This document shows positions 7,268 to 37,628 of a stretch of DNA of 64,000 bases, one piece after another. The notes under the pieces were generated by a model that was not told the DNA's origin, did not search any database, and saw only the letters and a list, made by a program, of their open reading frames with translations. Position 1 is the first letter of the stretch. Each line of letters opens with the position of its first letter. The DNA comes from Treponemataceae bacterium (lineage in GTDB: Bacteria > Spirochaetota > Spirochaetia > Treponematales > Treponemataceae), in assembly GCA_024680915.1 (NCBI GenBank), contig JAILBN010000101.1, forward strand, positions 1 to 64,000, written 5' to 3'. Both the position numbers and the translations under genes were made by a program.

Positions 7268-8743
7268 ATGAAGATACTTATGGTTACTGCAGAAGCTGTA
7301 CCATTTGCTAAGACAGGTGGTCTTGCAGATGCTGTCTCAGCTCTTTCAATTGAACTGGAGAAACTTGGACATGACGTAAGAATTGTTATGCCCCGATATT
7401 ACAAGATTCCTAGAAGTAATCTGAAAATCCTGGATGGACCGATGTGTGTTCATTGTGGTTCTGAAGAAATCTGGACTGCCGTTTATACCTCAGTCTTGAC
7501 AGGTTCGAAAAATATCCCGGTTTATTTTATTGATCATGAACAAAGCTTTGGCAGGGATGGTATATATGGTACTCATCAGGATCCGGATTTTTCTGATAAT
7601 CCACGCCGTTTTTCAATTTTATGTCATTCTGCCTTTCAGTTATCAAGAAAATTAGGATGGTATCCAGATATAATCCATGCTCATGATTGGTCTGCCGCTC
7701 TTGCTCCTGTATTGTTAAAATTCAATGAACGGTATCATAGTGAATTTGAAAATACTGCCAGTATTTTTACGATTCATAATCTAGGCTATCAAGGAATATA
7801 TGGAAAAAACAACTATCCTTTGCTGGGCCTTGATTGGTGCCACTTTTATTCAGCAGGCTTCGAAGATTATGATAATATAAACTTCCTGAAAGCTGGATTA
7901 GTCTCGTCTGACATGTTGACCACAGTCTCTCCCACATATGCTAAGGAAATCCAATGCTCAGAATATGGCTTCAGAATGGATGGAATCCTTAGGAACAGGG
8001 CCGGGGACCTGGAAGGAATTCTAAACGGAGTTGATACGATGGTTTGGAATCCTTCCAAGGACAAAAAGATTCCTGTAAAATATAGTGCATCTTCAATTGA
8101 GAAGAAGAAAGAGAATAAAGCTGCTTTACAAGAACAAATGGGTTTGGAAGTAAACCCTGATATTCCATTGTTCGGAATAATCACAAGGCTGGCAGATCAA
8201 AAAGGAGTTTCAGAACTGTTCGCACCTTCCTATGGCTGTGCTTATCGAATGTGTACAGAAATGAGGCTTCAGCTTGTGGTTTTAGGTTCTGGAGAACAGT
8301 GGTGTGAAAACGAATTGAACGCACTTCAAACAAAGCTTCCGAATTTCAAGGCCTATATTGGTTATAACGATGCTTTAAGTCATCTGATAGAAGCAGGAAG
8401 TGATTTCTTTCTTATGCCATCAAGATATGAGCCTTGCGGTTTGAACCAGATGTATTCATTGCTGTACGGAACACTTCCCATCGTCCGTAATACAGGAGGA
8501 CTCGCGGATACAGTTATTAATTACAACGAAACTACAGGCAAGGGAACCGGCTTCGTCTTCAACGATCTTACTCCCAACAGTATTTTCGATACAGTAGGGT
8601 GGTCTGTGTATGCATGGTATAACAAACCCGAGCATATTAAGGCTATGAAAATACGCGGAATGAAACAAAAATTCGGCTGGAATGTATCGGCAGAAAAGTA
8701 TGAGGATGTATACAAACGTGCACTCTCGAAAATCCGTTTTTAA
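7268..8743 (+). CDS. glgA: glycogen synthase (GT5, ADP-glucose type)
   Basis: This 491-residue enzyme extends alpha-1,4-glucan chains with a nucleotide sugar, normally ADP-glucose in bacteria. The N-terminal starch-synthase domain has the diagnostic AKTGGLADA loop (Lys about residue 15), HAHDWSAAL and TIHNLGYQG. The C-terminal GT1-like domain has RLADQKGV and the E-x7-E type motif YEPCGLNQMYSLLYG followed by TGGLADTV. Length matches canonical GlgA. The ATG follows a good Shine-Dalgarno (AAGGAG). Compare the divergent paralogue at 36039-37628, which lacks the KTGGL loop. Confidence 0.96.
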   Translation: MKILMVTAEAVPFAKTGGLADAVSALSIELEKLGHDVRIVMPRYYKIPRSNLKILDGPMCVHCGSEEIWTAVYTSVLTGSKNIPVYFIDHEQSFGRDGIYGTHQDPDFSDNPRRFSILCHSAFQLSRKLGWYPDIIHAHDWSAALAPVLLKFNERYHSEFENTASIFTIHNLGYQGIYGKNNYPLLGLDWCHFYSAGFEDYDNINFLKAGLVSSDMLTTVSPTYAKEIQCSEYGFRMDGILRNRAGDLEGILNGVDTMVWNPSKDKKIPVKYSASSIEKKKENKAALQEQMGLEVNPDIPLFGIITRLADQKGVSELFAPSYGCAYRMCTEMRLQLVVLGSGEQWCENELNALQTKLPNFKAYIGYNDALSHLIEAGSDFFLMPSRYEPCGLNQMYSLLYGTLPIVRNTGGLADTVINYNETTGKGTGFVFNDLTPNSIFDTVGWSVYAWYNKPEHIKAMKIRGMKQKFGWNVSAEKYEDVYKRALSKIRF

Positions 8744-18138: not shown

Positions 18139-19563
18139 ATGAAATCGATTCTGAAGATATTTCTAATTATACTTGCCGCCTCTTTTTTTTTAATACTTGT
18201 TTTTCTTTTCCGTATTCAACCATCAATCAAAATATGGGAGCAGTACAAAGTATTTTATTTTCCTTCTGACTACTCGCTGTATAAGATAAAAACGGCGATA
18301 AATGACGAAAATCTTCTTCAAGCTATTATTTTCGAGAATCCTGATTATCATCATGCATGGGTAAACATAATGCAGGCTGAAGAAAACTATGATACTGTCC
18401 GTGATTTTTCCCAAAAATACATGAGAGATTTCTTTTTTTATGATAAAACAGGTAGTTACCGTATAATATATGTTCCTGATGATATCTCATCAGATCTCAT
18501 CAGTTCTCTAAAAGCTTCAGGCATATCCTTCGGAACCGATAGTGTGAACAAATATCCTTATCTTTATCCTATTATCTCTTTTGTTTTTCTGATTCTTCTT
18601 GCGCTTTTCGGTAAAATGTCTTTTTTTCACTCTGTTTCTGCGGTTCCTCTTATTCTCTTTACCCTCTGGTGTCCATTTTATAATTCTGCTGTGGGTGTCC
18701 TATCTGCTCTGTTTGGCTTTTATACGGCAGAGCAATATGCAGGGAAAAAATACGGAATTACCAGGACCTTTCTTAATCCTGTTGTAATCATATGTCTCCT
18801 GTTCTCCCTTTTCTCAATTACAGCAGGAGGAATAAAACTTTTACTCTTATTCCTTTCCACCCTTGTTTCATCCATCCTTCTATGGATATCTTTGGTTTGT
18901 CTGAACAAAATATCACTGTCAGCTTATCATTTCCGTTATGTTCCCATTCTTACATCCAAGTCCTTTTATCCATACAAAAGAGTAACTTTTTTTTCCATTT
19001 CAATGGTTGCGGTAGCAGCTACAGTCCTTGCCTTATTTTTCTTCCTGTCTGCCGGTATCATCAGAAGCACAGGTGAGGATGACTTGTATCTACCTTCTCC
19101 TTCAGAGTATACTGAATCTGTGGGTATAAACAGCTCATCTTATTCCGAGCTAAAGGAATTCGATTCCAGAGAGTATCCTGATACAGCAGACTTCATCGAT
19201 GAATATTGGTTGAATATACGCTCTCAGTACAGCAGACTTTCTGATAATTATTCCAGTGAGGACATAACTCCAGGAGATATAATTGCGATTCCTGTTTTTA
19301 CGGAAGATACAGATGGTATTCACAGTGAGCTTAGGACAATAGAGTCTTTTGACGATAAATTCATTGATAAATTAACTCAAGAGTTCATAGGAAATGGGGG
19401 AGCAGAACAATTTCTTTTCTCTCAGGGGAAAATGTTCTCAACAAAATATGTAAAAGCGGGAGATAGATCCCATGACTTGAATTCCGCTTTATCAATAATT
19501 TCACTCTTTGTATTATTTGTGATATTATTTATCTTAAGACTAATAAAAGGCTGTAAAAAATGA
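18139..19563 (+). CDS. integral membrane protein of unknown function heading the Rnf-like operon
   Basis: A 474-residue protein I do not recognise. It has an N-terminal membrane anchor (IFLIILAASFFLILVFLF), then an extracytoplasmic region of about 110 residues. A block of five or six hydrophobic segments follows (residues about 140-310), then a second soluble region with many acidic residues (310-440) and a final membrane segment (LFVLFVILFILRLI). Its stop overlaps the rnfC ATG as ATGA, so it is translationally coupled to the Rnf-like genes. That placement suggests an accessory subunit or assembly factor, which is inference from context only. Confidence 0.7.
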   Translation: MKSILKIFLIILAASFFLILVFLFRIQPSIKIWEQYKVFYFPSDYSLYKIKTAINDENLLQAIIFENPDYHHAWVNIMQAEENYDTVRDFSQKYMRDFFFYDKTGSYRIIYVPDDISSDLISSLKASGISFGTDSVNKYPYLYPIISFVFLILLALFGKMSFFHSVSAVPLILFTLWCPFYNSAVGVLSALFGFYTAEQYAGKKYGITRTFLNPVVIICLLFSLFSITAGGIKLLLLFLSTLVSSILLWISLVCLNKISLSAYHFRYVPILTSKSFYPYKRVTFFSISMVAVAATVLALFFFLSAGIIRSTGEDDLYLPSPSEYTESVGINSSSYSELKEFDSREYPDTADFIDEYWLNIRSQYSRLSDNYSSEDITPGDIIAIPVFTEDTDGIHSELRTIESFDDKFIDKLTQEFIGNGGAEQFLFSQGKMFSTKYVKAGDRSHDLNSALSIISLFVLFVILFILRLIKGCKK

Positions 19564-20822
19564 ACATAAAGAAAAAAATGAATATACCCTATGTTGCTTT
19601 TTCAGAAGCTGTAGACGCATATTTACCCTTATATGATTTTGTTCCCCTTAAGGATGAAGAAGGTAAGGTATGTATACAGAAAACAGCCCTTAATACTCGG
19701 GTCAGTGAAGGACAGGTCCTTGGTAAATATGATGCTTACAGTGCTTCAGTTCATTCACCGGTTCCAGGAGTTTTGAAAGAGTACAGAAGTCTGCCTATGC
19801 CGGACGGAAAAACAACGGAAGTTGCTGTGATAAAGCTTGACGGAGAGTTTTCCTTCAAAGGCAAAAAAATAAGGAACCATAGCTGGGACAATCTTTCCTC
19901 AATCGACATATGTTCTATTCTTGCCGACAATGGTGTTATAAACACTTTCGATACACCTTGCTCAATTGCCAGAGAAATATTAAATCACAATGATCATAGA
20001 TCGGGGGAAACGACCCTTGCTCTTCGTCTTTTTGATGCAGATCCAAGTTGTCGTACTGACAGCTTTATCGCTCTTAAAAAAACGAAAGAAGTCCTTGAAG
20101 GCGCGCTGATTATCGCGAAAGCTCTCTCTGCCAGTAATATTTTTGTACTCTGTGAGAAAGATATCAAGTATTATTCTTCTTTTTCATTTGACAATATGAA
20201 TTTCATACATGTTCCTTCCTCAAAGCAGGTAATGTGTGGAAAAAAGAATATAGATACCATTCTTCAAAACAACAAATATCCTTATAAAACTTCTGTCGCA
20301 ATAGACAGTTCCACAGCATTTGCCGCATATGAAGCCGTTGTCTTGCAGAAGCCTCTTCTGGAGCGCTTTATACAAGTATCTGGAGACGCGTTAAAAAACA
20401 ACGTAATGTTCAGAGTACGTATAGGGACTCCTGTCAGGAAGCTTATAGAGCAATGCGGAGGATTCAAGAAGAAGCCTTATAAAATAATCATCAACGGCCT
20501 TATAAAAGGTACTGCTATTGCCGACCCGGATACTCCTGTGACAAACATTGTTAAGTCGATTACAATCCTGTCCCGTATCTCTGTGCCAGACCAAAAACAG
20601 TCTCATTGTATACACTGTGGCAATTGTCACAGAATCTGTCCTGTACATCTGCATCCCGATGCATTCTTTGATTACTATTATTTTCATAAAGAACTTTCTG
20701 AAGCTTTTATCAATTCCTCACGTCTATGTATTCAATGCGGTCTATGTAACACCAGTTGTCCTTCAAGACTTCCTTTGTTCCAATCGATCGCTTTAATCAA
20801 AGGAACCTTAAATGAAAAATAA
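19560..20822 (+). CDS. rnfC: RnfC-like ferredoxin:NAD+ oxidoreductase subunit, glycine-rich loop missing
   Basis: In canonical Rnf, RnfC is the cytosolic NADH/FMN-binding subunit with two [4Fe-4S] clusters. This 420-residue protein keeps the N-terminal biotinyl-like fold (VSEGQVLGKYDAYSASVHSP), the VRIGTPVRKLIEQCGGF segment and both cluster motifs, CIHCGNCHRICP and CIQCGLCNTSCP. At the position of the usual glycine-rich GxGGAxFPT nucleotide/FMN loop it instead reads NGVINTFDTPCSIAREI. The usual YPQGGEKQL motif is also not visible (HVPSSKQVMCGKKN). So the family call is firm, but NADH/FMN binding is doubtful. It overlaps its neighbours by 4 and 11 nt. Confidence 0.85.
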   Translation: MNIKKKMNIPYVAFSEAVDAYLPLYDFVPLKDEEGKVCIQKTALNTRVSEGQVLGKYDAYSASVHSPVPGVLKEYRSLPMPDGKTTEVAVIKLDGEFSFKGKKIRNHSWDNLSSIDICSILADNGVINTFDTPCSIAREILNHNDHRSGETTLALRLFDADPSCRTDSFIALKKTKEVLEGALIIAKALSASNIFVLCEKDIKYYSSFSFDNMNFIHVPSSKQVMCGKKNIDTILQNNKYPYKTSVAIDSSTAFAAYEAVVLQKPLLERFIQVSGDALKNNVMFRVRIGTPVRKLIEQCGGFKKKPYKIIINGLIKGTAIADPDTPVTNIVKSITILSRISVPDQKQSHCIHCGNCHRICPVHLHPDAFFDYYYFHKELSEAFINSSRLCIQCGLCNTSCPSRLPLFQSIALIKGTLNEK

Positions 20823-21849
20823 ATATCAATTTCTGACACTAACACCTTTTTATAATTCTAAGCCCTCAATTGCTGATAGTGCGAAACTTACCCTGCTTCT
20901 TTTTGTTCCTCAGCTTGTCATCTTGTTTTTGACAAAAAGCTACAATGCTTTGATTATAATAGGAATTTCAATTTTTTCTTCCTTTGCTGCAGATTTTATA
21001 AACAATTGTCTTAAACATTCAAAGTTCAGGATTGATTTTACTGTTATTCTGCAAGGGCTTTTTATAGGTTTTTTTATACCTGAGAATTATCCGCCGGCAG
21101 TAGTTTTTTTCGTAGTCCCCGTGGTTCTGCTTCTATCTAAATATATATCAGGTGGGTTCGCTTTCTCCTGGGTCAATCCTGCTGTGCTGGCAGTACTATT
21201 TCTTTTTTTCCTTAACAGCAGTATATTCCCTCACTTTCAAATTCCTACCGAATACCTGAAGAACATAAATATCTTCTCAAACCTTCTGGGGGATGGAACC
21301 TTCTCAATACAACCTTTTGACAAGGTGGTAACTTCCTTCTTAAACAAGAATATTTTCAAATTCACTGGCTTAACCTTACCAGAAGGATACATTTCTCTTC
21401 TTTGGGATAACGGGAGCGTTATAGCTGGATTCAGATTTAATATACTCACCTTGTTCGCGACAATAATTCTCATCTCTTTTGATATGATAGACTGGTTGAT
21501 TCCCTCTGTATTCCTGATCGTATATGCTTTTTGTGTAAGAATATTCGGTACCGTACCTTTTGGGAATATTTATAATTCAGGAGATATTCTTCTTGCCCTC
21601 TGTACAAGCGGAACCTTTATCTGTGCTTTTTTCGTTTTACCATGGGCAGGAACAACACCGTCAAGCATTCCAGGTAAAATAATTTATGCAGTAATAGCAG
21701 GTCTTTTTTCTTTCCTTATTAATGGCTCCGGTACAGGTCATATTGGTTCAATGTTCGTCGTCCTGATCGTTAATATAATATCACCTTTTATTCAAATACT
21801 AGAAGATTTTTGCTATACGACTTTCTTCTTAAAGAAACAGGAGATGTAA
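20812..21849 (+). CDS. rnfD: RnfD/NqrB-like membrane subunit, flavinylation Thr not seen
   Basis: A 345-residue multi-span membrane protein with RnfD features: an N-terminal SPxx-like start (TPFYNSKPSIADSAKLTLLLF), the IDFTVILQGLFIGFFIPENYPP region, SWVNPAVLAVLFLFFL, and a C-terminal HIGSMFVVLIVNIISPFI block. Canonical RnfD carries a covalent FMN on the Thr of a D-G-V-S-G-A-T motif. The corresponding stretch here appears to be FDKVVTSFLNK, with Phe where the Thr should be (by-eye alignment). The ATG lies within the end of rnfC. Confidence 0.82.
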   Translation: MKNKYQFLTLTPFYNSKPSIADSAKLTLLLFVPQLVILFLTKSYNALIIIGISIFSSFAADFINNCLKHSKFRIDFTVILQGLFIGFFIPENYPPAVVFFVVPVVLLLSKYISGGFAFSWVNPAVLAVLFLFFLNSSIFPHFQIPTEYLKNINIFSNLLGDGTFSIQPFDKVVTSFLNKNIFKFTGLTLPEGYISLLWDNGSVIAGFRFNILTLFATIILISFDMIDWLIPSVFLIVYAFCVRIFGTVPFGNIYNSGDILLALCTSGTFICAFFVLPWAGTTPSSIPGKIIYAVIAGLFSFLINGSGTGHIGSMFVVLIVNIISPFIQILEDFCYTTFFLKKQEM

Positions 21850-21852
21850 AAG

Positions 21853-22332
21853 ATGAATAAAGAGCTTAAACTTCTTCTTCATAAATATGGAGCCTTTACA
21901 GTAATCCTTCTAGCCTTGTTTTTTATACTTGCCACAGTGACCCTGCTATCCAAAAATACATGGGAAAACAAGCTTCGTGAAAGTGTCTCCTCTGTCCTTG
22001 TTTCTAAATATGGTGATTTATATAGCGTAGACGAATATATAAATATACAGACACCTGCAATATTATCTACTGCAATATATTCAATTACAAACAAAGAAAG
22101 TAATGAGAAGGGCAAAGCCATACTGATTCGTATCACAGGGATCTCCGGTCCTACGGCAGCTGTATATACATATTTCGATGGATTTGAAAAAGGCTCCTTC
22201 GCAGGTTATGCGGCAAACACACTATTTTTATCTGGTGAAAACGGACTTGATTACAGTGCTTCTGAAACGCAGATCAACTATTACGCCCGCCGGATTCCAC
22301 AGTTAATTTCAAAAGGAATAGAAAAAGAATGA
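21853..22332 (+). CDS. rnfG: RnfG-like subunit, short, degenerate flavinylation motif
   Basis: A 159-residue protein with one N-terminal membrane segment (AFTVILLALFFILATVTLL) and an extracytoplasmic FMN-binding-type domain, shorter than typical RnfG (about 180-210). Near the C-terminus canonical RnfG has D-x-x-S-G-A-T-x-T/S, where the Thr is flavinylated. Here the stretch is GLDYSASETQINYY: a Thr is present at the same distance from the Asp, but the S-G-A context and the following Ser/Thr are lost. It has an AGGAG Shine-Dalgarno 11 nt before the ATG and overlaps the next gene by 4 nt. Confidence 0.75.
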   Translation: MNKELKLLLHKYGAFTVILLALFFILATVTLLSKNTWENKLRESVSSVLVSKYGDLYSVDEYINIQTPAILSTAIYSITNKESNEKGKAILIRITGISGPTAAVYTYFDGFEKGSFAGYAANTLFLSGENGLDYSASETQINYYARRIPQLISKGIEKE

Positions 22333-22931
22333 GAAAATCGATTTTTATGTTCACTACAGCAATACTTTGTTTTATTGTTCCTTTACCCTCCAGATTCGCA
22401 TACACATTGGTAATGCTGCTTGCAATTAATTTTATCATGCTAACAGGAACTACCCTTAAAGTTTTCATCGGAAAACTTAATTTACAGAATCTTGAACCGC
22501 TCCTTCTGATTGTTTTTATTATTTCGATGACCATACTTTTCAAACAGCTTTTAATTCTTTTTTCCCCAATAATAGCTTTCACCATCGGGTTCGTTATTTA
22601 TCTTGCCCCGGCATCTGCTTTCTTAAACGGTCACATTCTCGAGCCAAAAGAAAAATACACAGGCAATATATTTTCTATAAACATGAGAAACGCTGGGATT
22701 ATATCTGCAATAGCTTCCATAGTATCAATCATAAGGGAATTCCTTGCTTATGGGTCTTTTTCCCTTCCTTTCAGAGATGGAATACATATATATAAATATC
22801 CCTTCGTAAAAACAACAACGCTCTCTTTTTTCTTTTCGACCATATCAGGAGCTTTTGTCCTAACCGGTTTAGTATTCGCTTTTTTCGTCTTTATTAATAG
22901 AAAAATTGAGATAGCAAGGAGGAAGGATTAG
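22329..22931 (+). CDS. rnfE: RnfE/NqrD-like membrane subunit with one of two cluster cysteines
   Basis: A 200-residue protein with six hydrophobic segments, in the RnfE position of a C-D-G-E-A-B order. RnfE and RnfA normally supply two cysteines each to an intramembrane [2Fe-2S] cluster. Here a Cys is present near the first site (TTAILCFIVPLPS), but the second site, usually V-N-C-I-I-I-G-R-A-E-A-F, reads GFVIYLAPASAF with Val in place of Cys. The RDGIHIYKYPF segment corresponds to the periplasmic loop of family members. Assignment rests on length, topology, order and residual similarity. Confidence 0.7.
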   Translation: MRKSIFMFTTAILCFIVPLPSRFAYTLVMLLAINFIMLTGTTLKVFIGKLNLQNLEPLLLIVFIISMTILFKQLLILFSPIIAFTIGFVIYLAPASAFLNGHILEPKEKYTGNIFSINMRNAGIISAIASIVSIIREFLAYGSFSLPFRDGIHIYKYPFVKTTTLSFFFSTISGAFVLTGLVFAFFVFINRKIEIARRKD

Positions 22932-22934
22932 AAT

Positions 22935-23489
22935 ATGTTCCAACTTCTTCTTTTTTATACACTTGTTTCTTCCGCAGTGTTTGTTTATGGAATAGGTCTG
23001 AATAAGATAATTGTTTTTTCAAAAAAGCCTCAGGATACATTGGTTTTCCTCTCGAAAGAGCTTATCGTTATACTTCTTTCTTTATGTATTTGCTGGCCTC
23101 TGACTAGATTCATTCTTGTCCCCAATGGCCTTGTAGAATTATACCCCTTTTTCAGTTTTTTCATTATACATCTTATATCCATCGTCATTACAGAATTCTC
23201 AGCCCGTGTACTTAAAAAAAATGTGACAGGTTTTTATTTTTCATACTGTACGCTCCTTCTTGCCATAAATGAAGGCTTGACCTTTGCAAACGCCATTATC
23301 ATCGCGGTAGCATGTATTCTCGCCTTCTTTTGTATGCTTCCAATAATTTATGCGGCAAGATGGAAAATGAAAAGTAATCTGCAATATATCAGCTTTAAGG
23401 ATGGCGCCATGCTTTTTTTATGCATAGCCGTAATCCTTTTTATATTCTTTGCATTTAATGTTTCTTGGCTAAATCCTGAGGTATTCTGA
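22935..23489 (+). CDS. rnfA: RnfA/NqrE-like membrane subunit with one of two cluster cysteines
   Basis: A 184-residue, six-span membrane protein collinear with RnfA: LVSSAVFVYGIGLNKIIVFS aligns without gaps to the canonical LVNNFVLSRFLGICPFLGVS, placing Asn where the first cluster Cys should be. The second site, usually T-N-C-A-V-L-G-V-A-L, is SYCTLLLAINEGL, so that Cys is kept. Together with RnfE only two of the four expected [2Fe-2S] ligands remain. It ends in a 1-nt TGATG overlap with rnfB. Confidence 0.75.
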   Translation: MFQLLLFYTLVSSAVFVYGIGLNKIIVFSKKPQDTLVFLSKELIVILLSLCICWPLTRFILVPNGLVELYPFFSFFIIHLISIVITEFSARVLKKNVTGFYFSYCTLLLAINEGLTFANAIIIAVACILAFFCMLPIIYAARWKMKSNLQYISFKDGAMLFLCIAVILFIFFAFNVSWLNPEVF

Positions 23490-24109
23490 TGTTTATCGCA
23501 TTTCTAGTATGTGTTTTAATTATTCTTGCCGTAGGCGGCATTAGTTTTCTCTTGTTCATTTATTTTAGGTTTAATCCAGAAATGGTTTTTTCTGCAGAAG
23601 AAAAAGATTTTTTGAATAATCTTATAGAACCTTATGACAGTGACAACGGTCTTTGTGCGGTGGTGAAATGCTCTCCTGATAGAGATAATCACACAAATCT
23701 TTTGGAACATAGCGAAATGACAGATTGTCGTTTGTTCTCAGAAATCTATGGTAAAGAACAGTTTTGTAAATGGGGATGTCTGGGTTACGGAACCTGTGTC
23801 ACTTTCTGTCCCCAACAGGCTATAATTATAAAAAACGGGACAGCCGTTATAACAGAATCTTGCAATGGATGCGGAGCCTGTGTGGATCATTGTCCTCAAC
23901 ATATTATAGAACTTATTCCCAGGGAAAAAGAATATTTTGTTCAATGTTCTTTGCCAGAAGACGAGACATGCGATAATTGTTCAGTCAGCTGTACTTCATG
24001 CAGAGGCTGCAGGAAGGAAGAAACACTCACTCTTGAGATTGCAAAGAAATGTCCGAGAAAATGTATTAAAAAAATCACAAATCCTTTTTCAAAAGGCTTT
24101 AAATTATAA
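23489..24109 (+). CDS. rnfB: RnfB-like ferredoxin subunit lacking the N-terminal Fe-S motif
   Basis: A 206-residue protein with one N-terminal membrane anchor (IAFLVCVLIILAVGGISFLL). It keeps the Rnf-specific CAVVKCSPDRD, CKWGCLGYGTCVTFCP (C-x3-C-x4-C-x3-C) and the ferredoxin motif CNGCGACVDHCP, plus a Cys-rich C-terminus (CDNCSVSCTSCRGCRK). Canonical RnfB has an extra N-terminal domain with a C-G-x-C-G-x-x-x-C cluster motif between the anchor and the KCS segment. Here those segments are only about 50 residues apart, and no such motif is present. RnfB normally accepts electrons from reduced ferredoxin. Confidence 0.85.
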   Translation: MFIAFLVCVLIILAVGGISFLLFIYFRFNPEMVFSAEEKDFLNNLIEPYDSDNGLCAVVKCSPDRDNHTNLLEHSEMTDCRLFSEIYGKEQFCKWGCLGYGTCVTFCPQQAIIIKNGTAVITESCNGCGACVDHCPQHIIELIPREKEYFVQCSLPEDETCDNCSVSCTSCRGCRKEETLTLEIAKKCPRKCIKKITNPFSKGFKL

Positions 24110-24172
24110 GGATTGTGTTTTATCATTAGAGACTACGATTCTAAAGTTAAAAATTAAATTTTTGTCTTTGTA

Positions 24173-24209: not shown

Positions 24210-26099
24210 ATGGAGAATATGAGTGTTTGTTTTGTACTCAGACTTGATTCTGAAGGAATACTGAATGATCACGAAGAAGAAACACAGTATCAGAATCATA
24301 TAAAACACATTCTTTCTTTTCTTTATTCTCATCAGGAGTTCTCTCTTACCATAGCGCTCTCAGGACGGAAATCTGAATGGCTTGAAAAAAAACATCCGGA
24401 GGCTATAGAACTCATTTCGGAGTTAGTCTCAAAAAAACAGGTCGAGATGGCAGGAGGAGGGTACTATGATCCTATACTTCCCTTGCTGCTCCCTGTAGAC
24501 AGAGTCGGACAGATTGAAATGCTGACGACAGCCCTTAGAAAGCTTTTCGGAAGAAAACCAAGAGGTGCATGGCTTACAAGCAGCGCTTGGGATTCATCCC
24601 TAATAACAAGCTTGAATTCCTGTGGTATGGATTATGCATTTATCGACATGTCCTTATTACTACCAGAATATCAGTTGGAATCATTCTGCTCAAAACCTGT
24701 AATAGTCGAGGAATATGGAAAAACAATAAAAATCCTTCCTCTATGCAAAAATGTGATACCTTCGAAATCTGATTCCCCGCAAGATTTCCTTTCCTCCTTC
24801 TTTAAGCTATCTGGCAACAAAAAAATAACCACGATATCCACTTTATTTATGCCTGAAGAGTTATCATTCATAATACAAAACGGTTGGATGGAGGAATTCA
24901 TTACAACTATTACCAATGAAAAGACTGTAACCTTATATACAGCGACACAATATTTAAAGAACTGTCATACATACACCAGAGCATATATACCAGCCTGTTC
25001 TATAAAAAACAGGCGTCCAGTAAAAGAAATCATCGCTAAAAATCCTGAATCCTTCAGACTATATTCCCGAATGATTCAAATTTCAAATGAAATAAATCAA
25101 TACCGTGGAGATAAAGCCAGGAAAAAGGCCGCAAGAGAGGAGCTTTGGAAAGCTCAGGAAAGAACAGCTTACTGGAACGAAAATCTCGATTTGATTGAGC
25201 AGCAGGCAATACGGCAGAAGTCTTATAATCATCTACTTATAGCTGAAAAGTTTATAAAAGAAACATCCTCTAAAACTGATATTCATCTTACATCTTTTGA
25301 CCTTGATATGGATGGAATTCAGGAATATATCTGCAGGACTCCTGTCTATAATTCTTTTCTCTCCATGGAAGGTGGGACAGTTTTTGAACTTGATGCAAGA
25401 CAAAGCTGTAGGAATTATGCAATTGTGTCCGAATGCGAAAATGGCTTATACCAAAGAAAATTTTTCACAGATTTTTTTGCCGATAAAAACTCTTTTTTCG
25501 ATCAGTATCAGAATGGAAAGCCACTTTTGAACAATCCCTTCAGGGATATTGTATATAAAGAAACAGCTTTTTACAGGTCAAGACAAGAATTACAGCTTGA
25601 GGCAGAAGGTTTTTACGGGAAAAAGCGCCAGAATATAACGCTCCGTAAAAAATTCCTTTTCTCTGATAATTCAATTCAAGTTCAATACATAATCAAAAAC
25701 AAAAGTCCGGATTACTTAAAATGTTATTTCTCAGTCGAGTCAAACCTTGCTCTTGTCGATTTCGATACAAAAAACCGTCGTATAGAAGTGATATCTTCAG
25801 ATACAAGTATAACGGCTTGTTCTAATCAATTGTTTGTGCATCAGAAGGATGTTTCCTGCTGCCAGGTATCTGACTCAAAAACCTCATCTGTATTCACCTT
25901 CGAGACCAACGAAAATGCAGGCATCTGCATATTGCCCCTTGTTTATGAAAAGAAACCTTATGCTACATGCTTTACTTTCTTTTGGAAACTAGAGATACCT
26001 GCCGGCTATGAAACAGAAAAAACACTTTTCCTTAATATACAGCAAAATACAAAAAAAGCTCTTTCCCAAAAGAAAGGTCCCTCTGCGACAAAATCATAA
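24210..26099 (+). CDS. GH57-like protein (4-alpha-glucanotransferase/amylopullulanase family) without catalytic residues
   Basis: A 629-residue protein with the GH57 architecture: an N-terminal (beta/alpha)7 region including QVEMAGGGYYDPILPLL and VGQIEMLTTALRKLFG, a helical middle, and a C-terminal beta-sandwich resembling DUF1926. The region that in active enzymes reads G-x-W-L-T-E-R-V-W-E-P (catalytic Glu) is GAWLTSSAWDSSL here, with Ser at the nucleophile. The D-G-E-K-F-G acid motif and the N-terminal H-Q-P motif are also absent. The frame is intact over its full length. It is therefore probably a pseudoenzyme that may bind glucans. GGAG about 10 nt before the ATG. Confidence 0.75.
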   Translation: MENMSVCFVLRLDSEGILNDHEEETQYQNHIKHILSFLYSHQEFSLTIALSGRKSEWLEKKHPEAIELISELVSKKQVEMAGGGYYDPILPLLLPVDRVGQIEMLTTALRKLFGRKPRGAWLTSSAWDSSLITSLNSCGMDYAFIDMSLLLPEYQLESFCSKPVIVEEYGKTIKILPLCKNVIPSKSDSPQDFLSSFFKLSGNKKITTISTLFMPEELSFIIQNGWMEEFITTITNEKTVTLYTATQYLKNCHTYTRAYIPACSIKNRRPVKEIIAKNPESFRLYSRMIQISNEINQYRGDKARKKAAREELWKAQERTAYWNENLDLIEQQAIRQKSYNHLLIAEKFIKETSSKTDIHLTSFDLDMDGIQEYICRTPVYNSFLSMEGGTVFELDARQSCRNYAIVSECENGLYQRKFFTDFFADKNSFFDQYQNGKPLLNNPFRDIVYKETAFYRSRQELQLEAEGFYGKKRQNITLRKKFLFSDNSIQVQYIIKNKSPDYLKCYFSVESNLALVDFDTKNRRIEVISSDTSITACSNQLFVHQKDVSCCQVSDSKTSSVFTFETNENAGICILPLVYEKKPYATCFTFFWKLEIPAGYETEKTLFLNIQQNTKKALSQKKGPSATKS

Positions 26100-36038: not shown

Positions 36039-37628
36039 TTGCATAAGTTAAAGATATGGCAGATAAGCCGAGAATACGCCGGCATAGCAGAAGCTGGCGG
36101 TGTGAAGAATGTTGTATGCTCCCTTTCAGAGCGTTTGGCCGATGAAGACCATGAAGTAACTCTTTTCATTCCACTCTATGGATGTACTAATCTAGCCTCC
36201 ATAAAGGACTTTGACATAGTCTCTGATTATACTTCATACATCAATATAGCCGGAAATAATTACAAGGTATCATTCGGCTCTGCTTTTTGTGACAAAATAA
36301 AAATCATCTTTTTGATATCAACGATATTCATCGAGAAAATGAATATTTACACTTACACAGAACAAGAGGAACGTATAAATCCTTCTCATATAAGAGGACA
36401 AGGTCATCTTGATGCCTCCATACTTGAGGTTCTTTTCCAAAAATCAGTTCTTGAGTATGCTGTTCATTTTTCTCTGTACCCCGATATAATTCATTGTCAC
36501 GATGCGACCACAGCCCTCATACCTGTTTTTGCAGCAGAAATACAAAAATATAAACAATTGTATGAGAGAACACATTTTATTGTTACAATACATAATGCAG
36601 GTCCTGCCTATCATCATGAGTTTGCTACTATGAAAGAGGCAGTTAGCTATACCGGACTGACAGCCGCCATATTAGGGAAAGGAAAAAACGGTCCTGCCAT
36701 AGAACCATACCTTCTGGCCGGCTTCTATTCTTCTCTGACCACCGTTTCACCCTGGTATGCCGATGAGCTTATGAATCCTGAAGATTCGAACACTGACGGA
36801 TTGTCAAAGCTTTTTTCCATCAATAATATAAAAATAACAGGAATAACCAACGGAATAGACTATGGCAAGTACAATCCGGAAAACACAGCTATCTCCCTCC
36901 TGCCATTTCCTTTTTCTCCAGAAAAGAATATCTTTCTTGGTAAATTCAAATCAAGGGAGCTTTTCTTAGATTATTATTCCAGGAATGACACAAAGTCTAA
37001 GCTGAAAAAAAGCATTAGAACAATAAACACAGGTATTGAGCAATTCGGGTACATAGAAAACGAGAAGGGATGTGTTTTTTTCTCTTATCACGGAAGAATT
37101 GTCCAGCAAAAAGGAATTGACATATGGACAGCGGCAATTCCAACCGTCCTGAAAAAATGTCCCTATGTCCGTTTCGTTATTACAGGACAGGGGACTCCTG
37201 ATTTGGAAAGGAAACAAATCAAGCTTACAAAACAGTATCCCGGTAAGATTCTTTACTTACGAGGATATGAAAAAACTCTGGCGAGATTATGTGTTGCCAT
37301 ATCTGATTTTATTGTTCTTCCAAGCTTTTTTGAACCCTGCGGTCTGGAAGATTTCATAGCATCAATTTATGGGACGATACCTATAGCACATAAGACCGGA
37401 GGTCTTAATAAAATAATAGACAATAAGACAGGCTTCCTTTTTCAACCCAACACTTCTGAAATACTTTCTTCTTTACTGATCAAGATTGCTGACAAGAAAC
37501 ATGAGAATGAACATTTCTTTGACGACATAGCTATTGAAGCAGCACAGTACGTACATCGCTCATATTCCTGGGAAAAAGTCATTTCCGACAAATATATACC
37601 TCTTTACGAGAATATAATGAAATTATAA
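36039..37628 (+). CDS. divergent GT5 glycogen/starch synthase paralogue
   Basis: A 529-residue GT5-family protein. The N-terminal motif is IAEAGGVKNVVCSLSERL, where canonical bacterial GlgA has K-T-G-G-L-A-D-V, so the Lys that contacts the nucleotide sugar is replaced by Glu. Other family signatures are kept: IIHCHDATTALIPVF, VTIHNAGPAYHH, GRIVQQKGIDIW and FFEPCGLEDFIASIYGTIP with KTGGLNKIIDN. It starts at TTG 36039, supported by ACAGG 9 nt upstream and by the position of the first strand. It may use another donor or be regulatory. A standard GlgA is encoded at 7268-8743. Confidence 0.82.
   Translation: MHKLKIWQISREYAGIAEAGGVKNVVCSLSERLADEDHEVTLFIPLYGCTNLASIKDFDIVSDYTSYINIAGNNYKVSFGSAFCDKIKIIFLISTIFIEKMNIYTYTEQEERINPSHIRGQGHLDASILEVLFQKSVLEYAVHFSLYPDIIHCHDATTALIPVFAAEIQKYKQLYERTHFIVTIHNAGPAYHHEFATMKEAVSYTGLTAAILGKGKNGPAIEPYLLAGFYSSLTTVSPWYADELMNPEDSNTDGLSKLFSINNIKITGITNGIDYGKYNPENTAISLLPFPFSPEKNIFLGKFKSRELFLDYYSRNDTKSKLKKSIRTINTGIEQFGYIENEKGCVFFSYHGRIVQQKGIDIWTAAIPTVLKKCPYVRFVITGQGTPDLERKQIKLTKQYPGKILYLRGYEKTLARLCVAISDFIVLPSFFEPCGLEDFIASIYGTIPIAHKTGGLNKIIDNKTGFLFQPNTSEILSSLLIKIADKKHENEHFFDDIAIEAAQYVHRSYSWEKVISDKYIPLYENIMKL

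Follow-up and report, generated by a model that had tools for sequence, protein, structure and literature searches.

Proteins of glycoside hydrolase family GH57 that resemble 4-alpha-glucanotransferases (4AGTs) and lack catalytic residues were previously known: in the part of their account drawn on here, Martinovicova and Janecek describe 63 such '4AGT-like' sequences (2018, PMC6037648). We analyzed a GH57-like gene of a Treponemataceae bacterium (order Treponematales, class Spirochaetia, phylum Spirochaetota), located within positions 1 to 64,000 of contig JAILBN010000101.1 of assembly GCA_024680915.1; this whole stretch of 64,000 nucleotides is referred to as the window. The product of the gene shares with the GH57 4AGT of Thermococcus litoralis (1k1w/1k1x/1k1y) the three-domain architecture, the fold, motif 2 and the DxDxDG loop. 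Pseudoenzymes usually arise from duplicated copies in one lineage, whereas here a single gene, at a single ancient locus, has repeatedly lost its catalytic residues across the class, under purifying selection and while still tied to an electron-transport operon, Rnf. Rnf is among the main energy-conserving complexes of anaerobes, and in the GH57-like protein we have a defined candidate for an accessory factor that has so far been overlooked.

The gene is single-copy in its genome and its reading frame contains no internal stop. Three Pfam domains matched the product above their curated cut-offs, namely PF03065 (E 2.8e-25, 89.7 bits against 21.2), PF09094 (E 1.1e-6, 29.5 bits against 27) and PF09095 (E 1.2e-16, 61.6 bits against 22). 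A profile built from 110 relatives matched PDB entry 1k1w over its full length (E 1.4e-112). The AlphaFold2 model of the protein (mean predicted local distance difference test score, pLDDT, 92.9; predicted template modelling score, pTM, 0.92) had 1k1x/1k1w as its closest structures (Foldseek E 4.4e-43), and superposition on them gave a Z of 33.6 over 559 residues, at 3.4 A and 22% identity. Since 1k1w was matched in full and 1k1x/1k1w were also the best structural matches, all three GH57 domains retain their fold. A previous reading by a model that saw only the letters and their open reading frames (the sequence-only reading) had called this a full-length GH57-like protein with the fold and the C-terminal beta-sandwich kept, and had suggested structure prediction and superposition as a check; both bear the description out. 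Structural matches of the C-terminal domain (residues 357-614) include 9grx_2 (Z 20.2) and 7wff_b (Z 19.7).

None of the three features of an active 4AGT (the nucleophile Glu, the proton-donor Asp and HQP) is found in the window protein, and the Asp and His of the DAYWHG segment of 1k1w are absent from it in the alignment. Motif 3, LTERVWQP in 1k1w, reads LTSSAWDS, with Glu123 of the enzyme aligned to a serine. The DDGEKFG segment corresponds to FMPEELS, and the HQP motif has given way to RLDSE. These replacements, placed by alignment to 1k1w, agree with the sequence-only reading, which had reported LTSSAWDS instead of the catalytic Glu motif and no D-G-E-K-F-G or H-Q-P. Residue counts were taken from an alignment of 138 relatives and 615 columns, which represents a chosen set of loci (best matches first, then contiguous genomes) rather than all genomes; duplicate loci of one gene as well as the fragment L019 were removed before counting, and for the structure alignment rows above about 62% identity were dropped. 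Because Trp127, three residues past the nucleophile position, is identical in 138 out of 138 relatives, the alignment of motif 3 is firm. The alignment has more gaps around the acid position, which is therefore less sure than motif 3; in the model, the strand preceding this position ends at residue 213, as expected.

Overall, the catalytic Glu is kept in 42 of the 138 relatives (5 out of 59 in the window's family, 16 out of 39 in the other families of the order and 21 out of 40 in the other families of the class), the catalytic Asp in 30 (7, 10 and 13, respectively), and the two together in 13. In the window's family the Glu position holds A, S, G, E, Y, H, Q, C, D, N, R and K. When all 615 columns are ranked by entropy, the Glu and Asp columns fall at the 64th and 60th percentiles, and Q77, E79 and W127 at the 0-3rd. 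Motif 2 (Q77, E79 and GGG[FY]) is almost invariant, with E79 kept in all groups. The equivalents of the sugar-site residues (H11, H13, W120, D214, D354 and the His of DAYWHG) lie at the 36th-89th entropy percentile in the window's family, where glucan-binding residues are mostly variable and E79 is the exception. An alternative acidic pair, which the sequence-only reading had named as a finding that would speak against a dead enzyme, has no conserved candidate among the aligned columns: S, P or E is the commonest residue where the acid should be and in the next two columns, in at most 26 of the 59 sequences of the window's family.

Relatives of the gene are widespread. At a threshold of E <= 0.001, and with the window's own genome included each time, 183 out of 195 genomes had a match at the level of the family, 142 out of 146 at that of the order and 103 out of 118 at that of the class. 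In a sample of the phylum 21 of 60 genomes matched, six of which belong to the class; the other matches are weaker and of another kind. A close-range locus search with the single window protein, which reaches just close relatives, returned one relative only. The intact frame is kept even in G020, a genome of 1.14 Mb.

We compared these proteins with other GH57 members. In the 11 canonical homologues from the other classes of the phylum (L199-L209), HQP, the Glu and D-D-G-E-K are all kept (11 out of 11). No Rnf cluster was found near any of the 11; the sole match came from three of them, in which a 705-aa protein scored 22-23 bits with the RnfC profile. Three loci of a different GH57 type (L210-L212, 66-94 bits) were placed outside these controls, and weak phylum matches in G445 and G457 and a second one in G450 were left out. 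Nine canonical homologues together with 1k1w split from the proteins of the class with a Shimodaira-Hasegawa-like approximate likelihood ratio (SH-aLRT) support of 100. Among branching-enzyme-type GH57 loci of the same class, outside the window's family, the Glu is kept in 11 out of 13 and the Asp also in 11 out of 13. As both the canonical controls and this branching-enzyme type keep their catalytic residues, the loss of the Glu-Asp dyad is specific to the Rnf-linked GH57 lineage, except for the second GH57 of the window's family. In that family, the branching-enzyme-type loci (L004 = G000:C17, L062, L063, L175 and L176) have lost the dyad wholly or partly in five cases out of five.

The ratio of nonsynonymous to synonymous substitution rates (dN/dS) ranged from 0.061 to 0.100 over the six pairs of genes with dS under 1. 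The four pairs without the dyad span this range (0.061-0.100), and the two pairs with the dyad in both members or in one gave 0.097 and 0.093. In three full-locus comparisons, two of which reuse genome pairs of the six-pair set, dN/dS of the GH57-like gene was 0.061, 0.066 and 0.080, and that of the Rnf-type genes and orf474 was 0.05-0.24. The state of the Glu changed at least 15 times on a tree of 118 rows and at least 16 times on a tree of 122 rows; both trees were built by a quick procedure after masking of the two trait columns, rows over 55-72% identity having been dropped for the smaller one and five long-branch rows for the larger one. Most of these changes should be losses, because a catalytic Glu is unlikely to be regained by chance, although their direction is deduced and many deep forks are open. 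The sequence-only reading had proposed dN/dS across relatives as a check and had taken the intact frame to imply a selected non-catalytic role. Low dN/dS in close pairs that lack the dyad, intact frames across the class, the repeated changes at the Glu and the unremarkable entropy of the catalytic columns all support that suggestion. A decaying pseudogene, considered as an alternative, is rejected by the dN/dS values and by the near-universal intact presence of the gene in the family.

In the window rnfB lies upstream of the GH57-like gene at a distance of about 100 bp, so that the position downstream of an Rnf-like cluster given by the sequence-only reading holds. What it missed is that the link to Rnf is a deeply conserved feature. 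Among the 92 loci with at least 7 kb of upstream sequence, 79 carry both RnfC and RnfD upstream of the gene and on its strand (18 out of 22 in the family, 28 out of 33 elsewhere in the order and 33 out of 37 elsewhere in the class); at these loci the gene belongs to the Rnf operon and has been maintained alongside it. Over the 119 loci that have an Rnf-type open reading frame close upstream, the median gap to the nearest one is 26 bp, with gaps of 150 bp or less in 110 loci and overlaps in 24. The recurring gene order is RluA - DUF212 - orf474 - RnfC-D-G-E-A-B - GH57, parts of which are missing or too diverged in some loci. The complete 1,139,633-bp genome G020 (L034, G020:C1:160000-179500) has this order, with orf474 and RnfB not found. 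No terminator-like site was detected in the gap between rnfB and the GH57-like gene of the window. One 9-of-12 promoter-like match occurs there (24098-24126), but matches of this kind do not exceed the shuffled expectation in the region (six against a mean of 9.5), and the inverted repeats around the gap are short and A+T-rich.

The 13 unlinked loci are a mixed group. Four belong to one genus (L036, L037, L125 and L126). In three of their genomes and in one further genome of the genus (G064, G050, G070 and G057) an Rnf cluster of the same divergent type occurs at a separate locus: here the gene and the Rnf cluster have been retained jointly after their loci separated. Five come from one clade, discussed below, and the remaining four (L145, L146, L157 and L159) have RnfC matches elsewhere. 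RnfC was matched in all 18 tested genomes that have the GH57-like gene. Among 10 genomes without it, four have no RnfC match (G301, G341, G360 and G389) and two small genomes have weak matches only (G311 and G333). In a mirror-tree analysis the correlation between GH57 and Rnf was 0.70-0.79 in three out of four locus sets, above that of other neighbours; as the distances are near saturation, we place no weight on this analysis.

The linked Rnf is itself unusual. The RnfC and RnfD of the window are recognisable, yet they fall below the curated cut-offs of the NCBIfam models. We counted Rnf motifs with simple patterns, which altered motifs may escape, in the loci with a linked cluster; their assignment to cofactors follows the Rnf literature, [ST]GA[TS] being the flavinylation-type motif. 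GxGGxxFP of RnfC is found in 0 out of 18 clusters of the family, 0 out of 30 of the rest of the order and 23 out of 34 of the rest of the class. The corresponding numbers are 0, 0 and 12 for GANCGxCG of RnfB, 3, 4 and 27 for LGxCP of RnfA/E, and 0, 10 and 22 for [ST]GA[TS]. The ferredoxin-type CxxCxxxCP occurs in all linked clusters. A second, canonical Rnf cluster is also present in the window's genome (L213, G000:C5:17000-30000), with GMGGAAFP, GANCGGCGY and SGAT in RnfD and RnfG. The protein encoded by orf474 is hydrophobic and of no known family; it is conserved within the family, and weak matches to it extend across the class. In another genome, G043, the stripped cluster has its RnfC divided between two frames (G043:C1:872737-873896) and the GH57 gene is intact. 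All features located in the window are collected in Table 1.

Table 1. Coordinates of the GH57-like gene, its motifs, the linked Rnf cluster and the glycogen synthase matches in the window.
Feature	Position	Strand	Remark
PF08323 glycogen synthase match	7271..7996		267 bits
orf474	18139..19563	+	Conserved unknown protein, head of the cluster
RnfC-like subunit	19560..20822	+	Ferredoxin-type Fe-S motifs kept, GxGGxxFP absent
RnfD-like subunit	20812..21849	+	PF03116, 3.4e-38
RnfG-position protein	21853..22332	+	No significant Pfam/NCBIfam match
RnfE-position protein	22329..22931	+	No Pfam/NCBIfam match
RnfA-position protein	22935..23489	+	TIGR01943 only at E 0.17
RnfB-like protein	23489..24109	+	Ferredoxin-type clusters kept, GANCGxCG lost
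GH57 4-alpha-glucanotransferase-like protein	24210..26099	+	629 aa, without catalytic dyad
Place of HNHQP	24240..24254	+	Residues 11-15, RLDSE (lost)
PF03065 Glyco_hydro_57 match	24279..24650	+	Residues 24-147
E79	24444..24446	+	Kept cleft motif 2; E in 132/138, D in 6/138
Motif 3	24573..24596	+	Residues 122-129, LTSSAWDS; nucleophile Glu replaced by Ser124
Place of acid/base Asp214	24849..24851	+	Met214, right after strand 208-213
D301-K302-x-R304-K305-K306	25110..25127	+	Near-invariant lineage motif, not in 1k1w
DxDxDG loop	25299..25316	+	Residues 364-369; D364 in 138/138
PF09095 C-terminal domain	25449..25940	+	Mutarotase-like beta-sandwich; best stretch residues 414-577
PF08323 glycogen synthase match	36051..36791		107 bits

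We did not detect any PF02508 match in G020, which we take to be Treponema pallidum, and for this reason G020 seems to keep only the stripped kind of Rnf. A flavoprotein encoded elsewhere could replace RnfG, as has reportedly been proposed for T. pallidum. It is conceivable, although we consider it rather doubtful, that the Rnf paralogue stripped throughout the order, with its ferredoxin-type Fe-S motifs kept and most recognisable flavin, NADH and [2Fe-2S] motifs gone, forms together with the dead GH57 and the unknown membrane protein a conserved membrane complex distinct from the canonical ferredoxin/flavodoxin:NAD pump, and that the syphilis-type 1.14 Mb genome has only this stripped version. 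If so, the energy-conserving RNF pump proposed for that genome needs rethinking. In the parts of the two papers drawn on here, the Rnf of T. pallidum is described as a noncanonical flavodoxin-driven pump with a proposed flavodoxin:NAD role (PMC7512555), and tp0151 as the rnfD of an ion-gradient-generating complex (PMC11371664). Because the treponemal linked Rnf has lost recognisable cofactor sites while that role has been proposed (PMC7512555), our observations bear on how this pathogen makes energy.

The reading that we favour, with a probability slightly below one half, is that the protein derives from a GH57 4AGT and serves an Rnf-type complex as a non-catalytic subunit with an accessory, assembly or docking role. 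Such an enzyme would have been recruited to the end of the Rnf operon before the class diversified, in one of its ancestors, glucan processing would have been given up, and the protein would act on the cytoplasmic side near RnfB/RnfC. The cytoplasmic location is suggested by the lack of a signal sequence on inspection by eye, and contact with the Rnf complex would underlie the assembly or docking role. A role through binding fits, since the fold, the locus and the constraint on rate were kept while the chemistry was free to vanish, and Rnf is proposed as the partner because its genes are those that stay with the GH57-like gene most often. Several points weigh against this proposal. The physical association between the protein and Rnf is one that we infer, and operon neighbours can stay together for expression alone. 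The fourth mirror-tree set (44 loci) gave a higher correlation for a KH gene (0.55) than for RnfC and RnfD (0.42 and 0.39). Four genomes have an RnfC match and no GH57-like gene (G306, G313, G357 and G390), the last three being 89, 64 and 79% complete. The conserved E79 and the motif-2 loop could mean that a ligand site is kept. Finally, the five loci of the clade mentioned above (L100, L106, L107, L119 and L120) keep the gene near DUF212 with the linked Rnf gone, and they retain the Glu in five cases out of five and the Asp in four; their genomes have only weak RnfC matches elsewhere, which in G205, the one genome read, belong to a canonical cluster. The protein can therefore persist without that Rnf, perhaps as an enzyme.

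Such loci, with four of the 13 relatives that keep both residues and with E79 kept in every group, are what favours a protein that has been wrongly called dead and is still an enzyme, with different catalytic residues or a different substrate. Twelve residue types at one position in the window's family are more than any one alternative chemistry explains, no conserved acidic substitute lies near the Asp position, and the Glu changed state at least 15 times amid steady constraint elsewhere, so we regard continued catalysis as quite unlikely. The sequence-only reading had thought of glucan sensing in an organism with two glycogen synthases. In a form of this idea adapted to the Rnf link, the dead cleft would still bind alpha-glucan and signal the glycogen status to Rnf, as a sensor or glycogen-binding regulator. 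The two synthases are there, as two PF08323 matches that both lie inside the window, and the nearly invariant motif 2 and the retained glucan-enzyme fold with its C-terminal sandwich would suit a sensor. This idea is weakened by the variability of the sugar-site residues and by the genomes without glycogen synthase. PF08323 was absent from G020, G303, G311 and G333 among the 31 genomes searched, yet G020 and G303 keep the GH57-like gene beside Rnf genes (in G303, PF02508 at C57:13636-14801 and the GH57-like gene at C57:11445-12698), and thus the gene tracks Rnf better than it tracks glycogen synthesis. A glucan sensor seems unlikely to us on these grounds. A housekeeping role unrelated to Rnf, with mere co-expression, would account for the persistence of the gene where the linked Rnf was lost and for the MetG and FemX genes in the neighbourhood of many loci of the order. 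We give it as little credit as continued catalysis, given that the Rnf linkage extends over the class, that no MetG or FemX neighbour is listed in the class outside the order, where 33 of 37 loci are linked, and that the gene often overlaps an Rnf gene or lies just a few bases from it. The drift of the catalytic residues might also be read as a gene heading for loss, but the low dN/dS, the near-universal presence in the family and the intact frame in a genome of 1.14 Mb leave this with hardly any probability.

When compared to the T. litoralis enzyme, the window protein lacks HNHQP, the nucleophile Glu, the acid Asp and the Asp and His of DAYWHG; it has instead DKxRKK and other invariants specific to the lineage, and its gene sits in an Rnf operon. 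A literature search, judged on titles and the starts of abstracts, returned no published link between GH57 and Rnf in Treponema or other spirochaetes. What we judge to be new is that the gene is linked to Rnf, how deep this link goes, that catalytic residues were lost repeatedly and that the linked Rnf was stripped in parallel. The window's family fits the description of the '4AGT-like' proteins, and because it does so the window pseudoenzyme is a new member of that group, in whose account, in the part drawn on here, neither Rnf nor gene neighbourhood is mentioned (PMC6037648). The same part also describes 'GBE like' proteins, which resemble GH57 branching enzymes (PMC6037648); the second GH57 of the window's genome and that of four other members of the family have likewise lost the dyad. 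These belong to a different GH57 subfamily, are about 520-550 aa long and are encoded elsewhere in the genome. The chloroplast NDH chains matched by the C-terminal domain, 9grx_2 and 7wff_b, we take to be PnsB2. In the parts of the sources drawn on here, PnsB2 is a subunit of chloroplast NDH and its paralogue NDF5 an assembly factor (PMC8211685), and the NDH supercomplex takes its electrons from ferredoxin (PMC12170339). Like the role proposed here, theirs is accessory to a ferredoxin-dependent ion-pumping complex, and the matched chains have the same mutarotase-type sandwich as the window protein has at its C-terminus. Only this one domain is in common and the plant complex is unrelated to Rnf, so that NDF5 and PnsB2 may offer a precedent for an accessory role by analogy of fold, not by membership.
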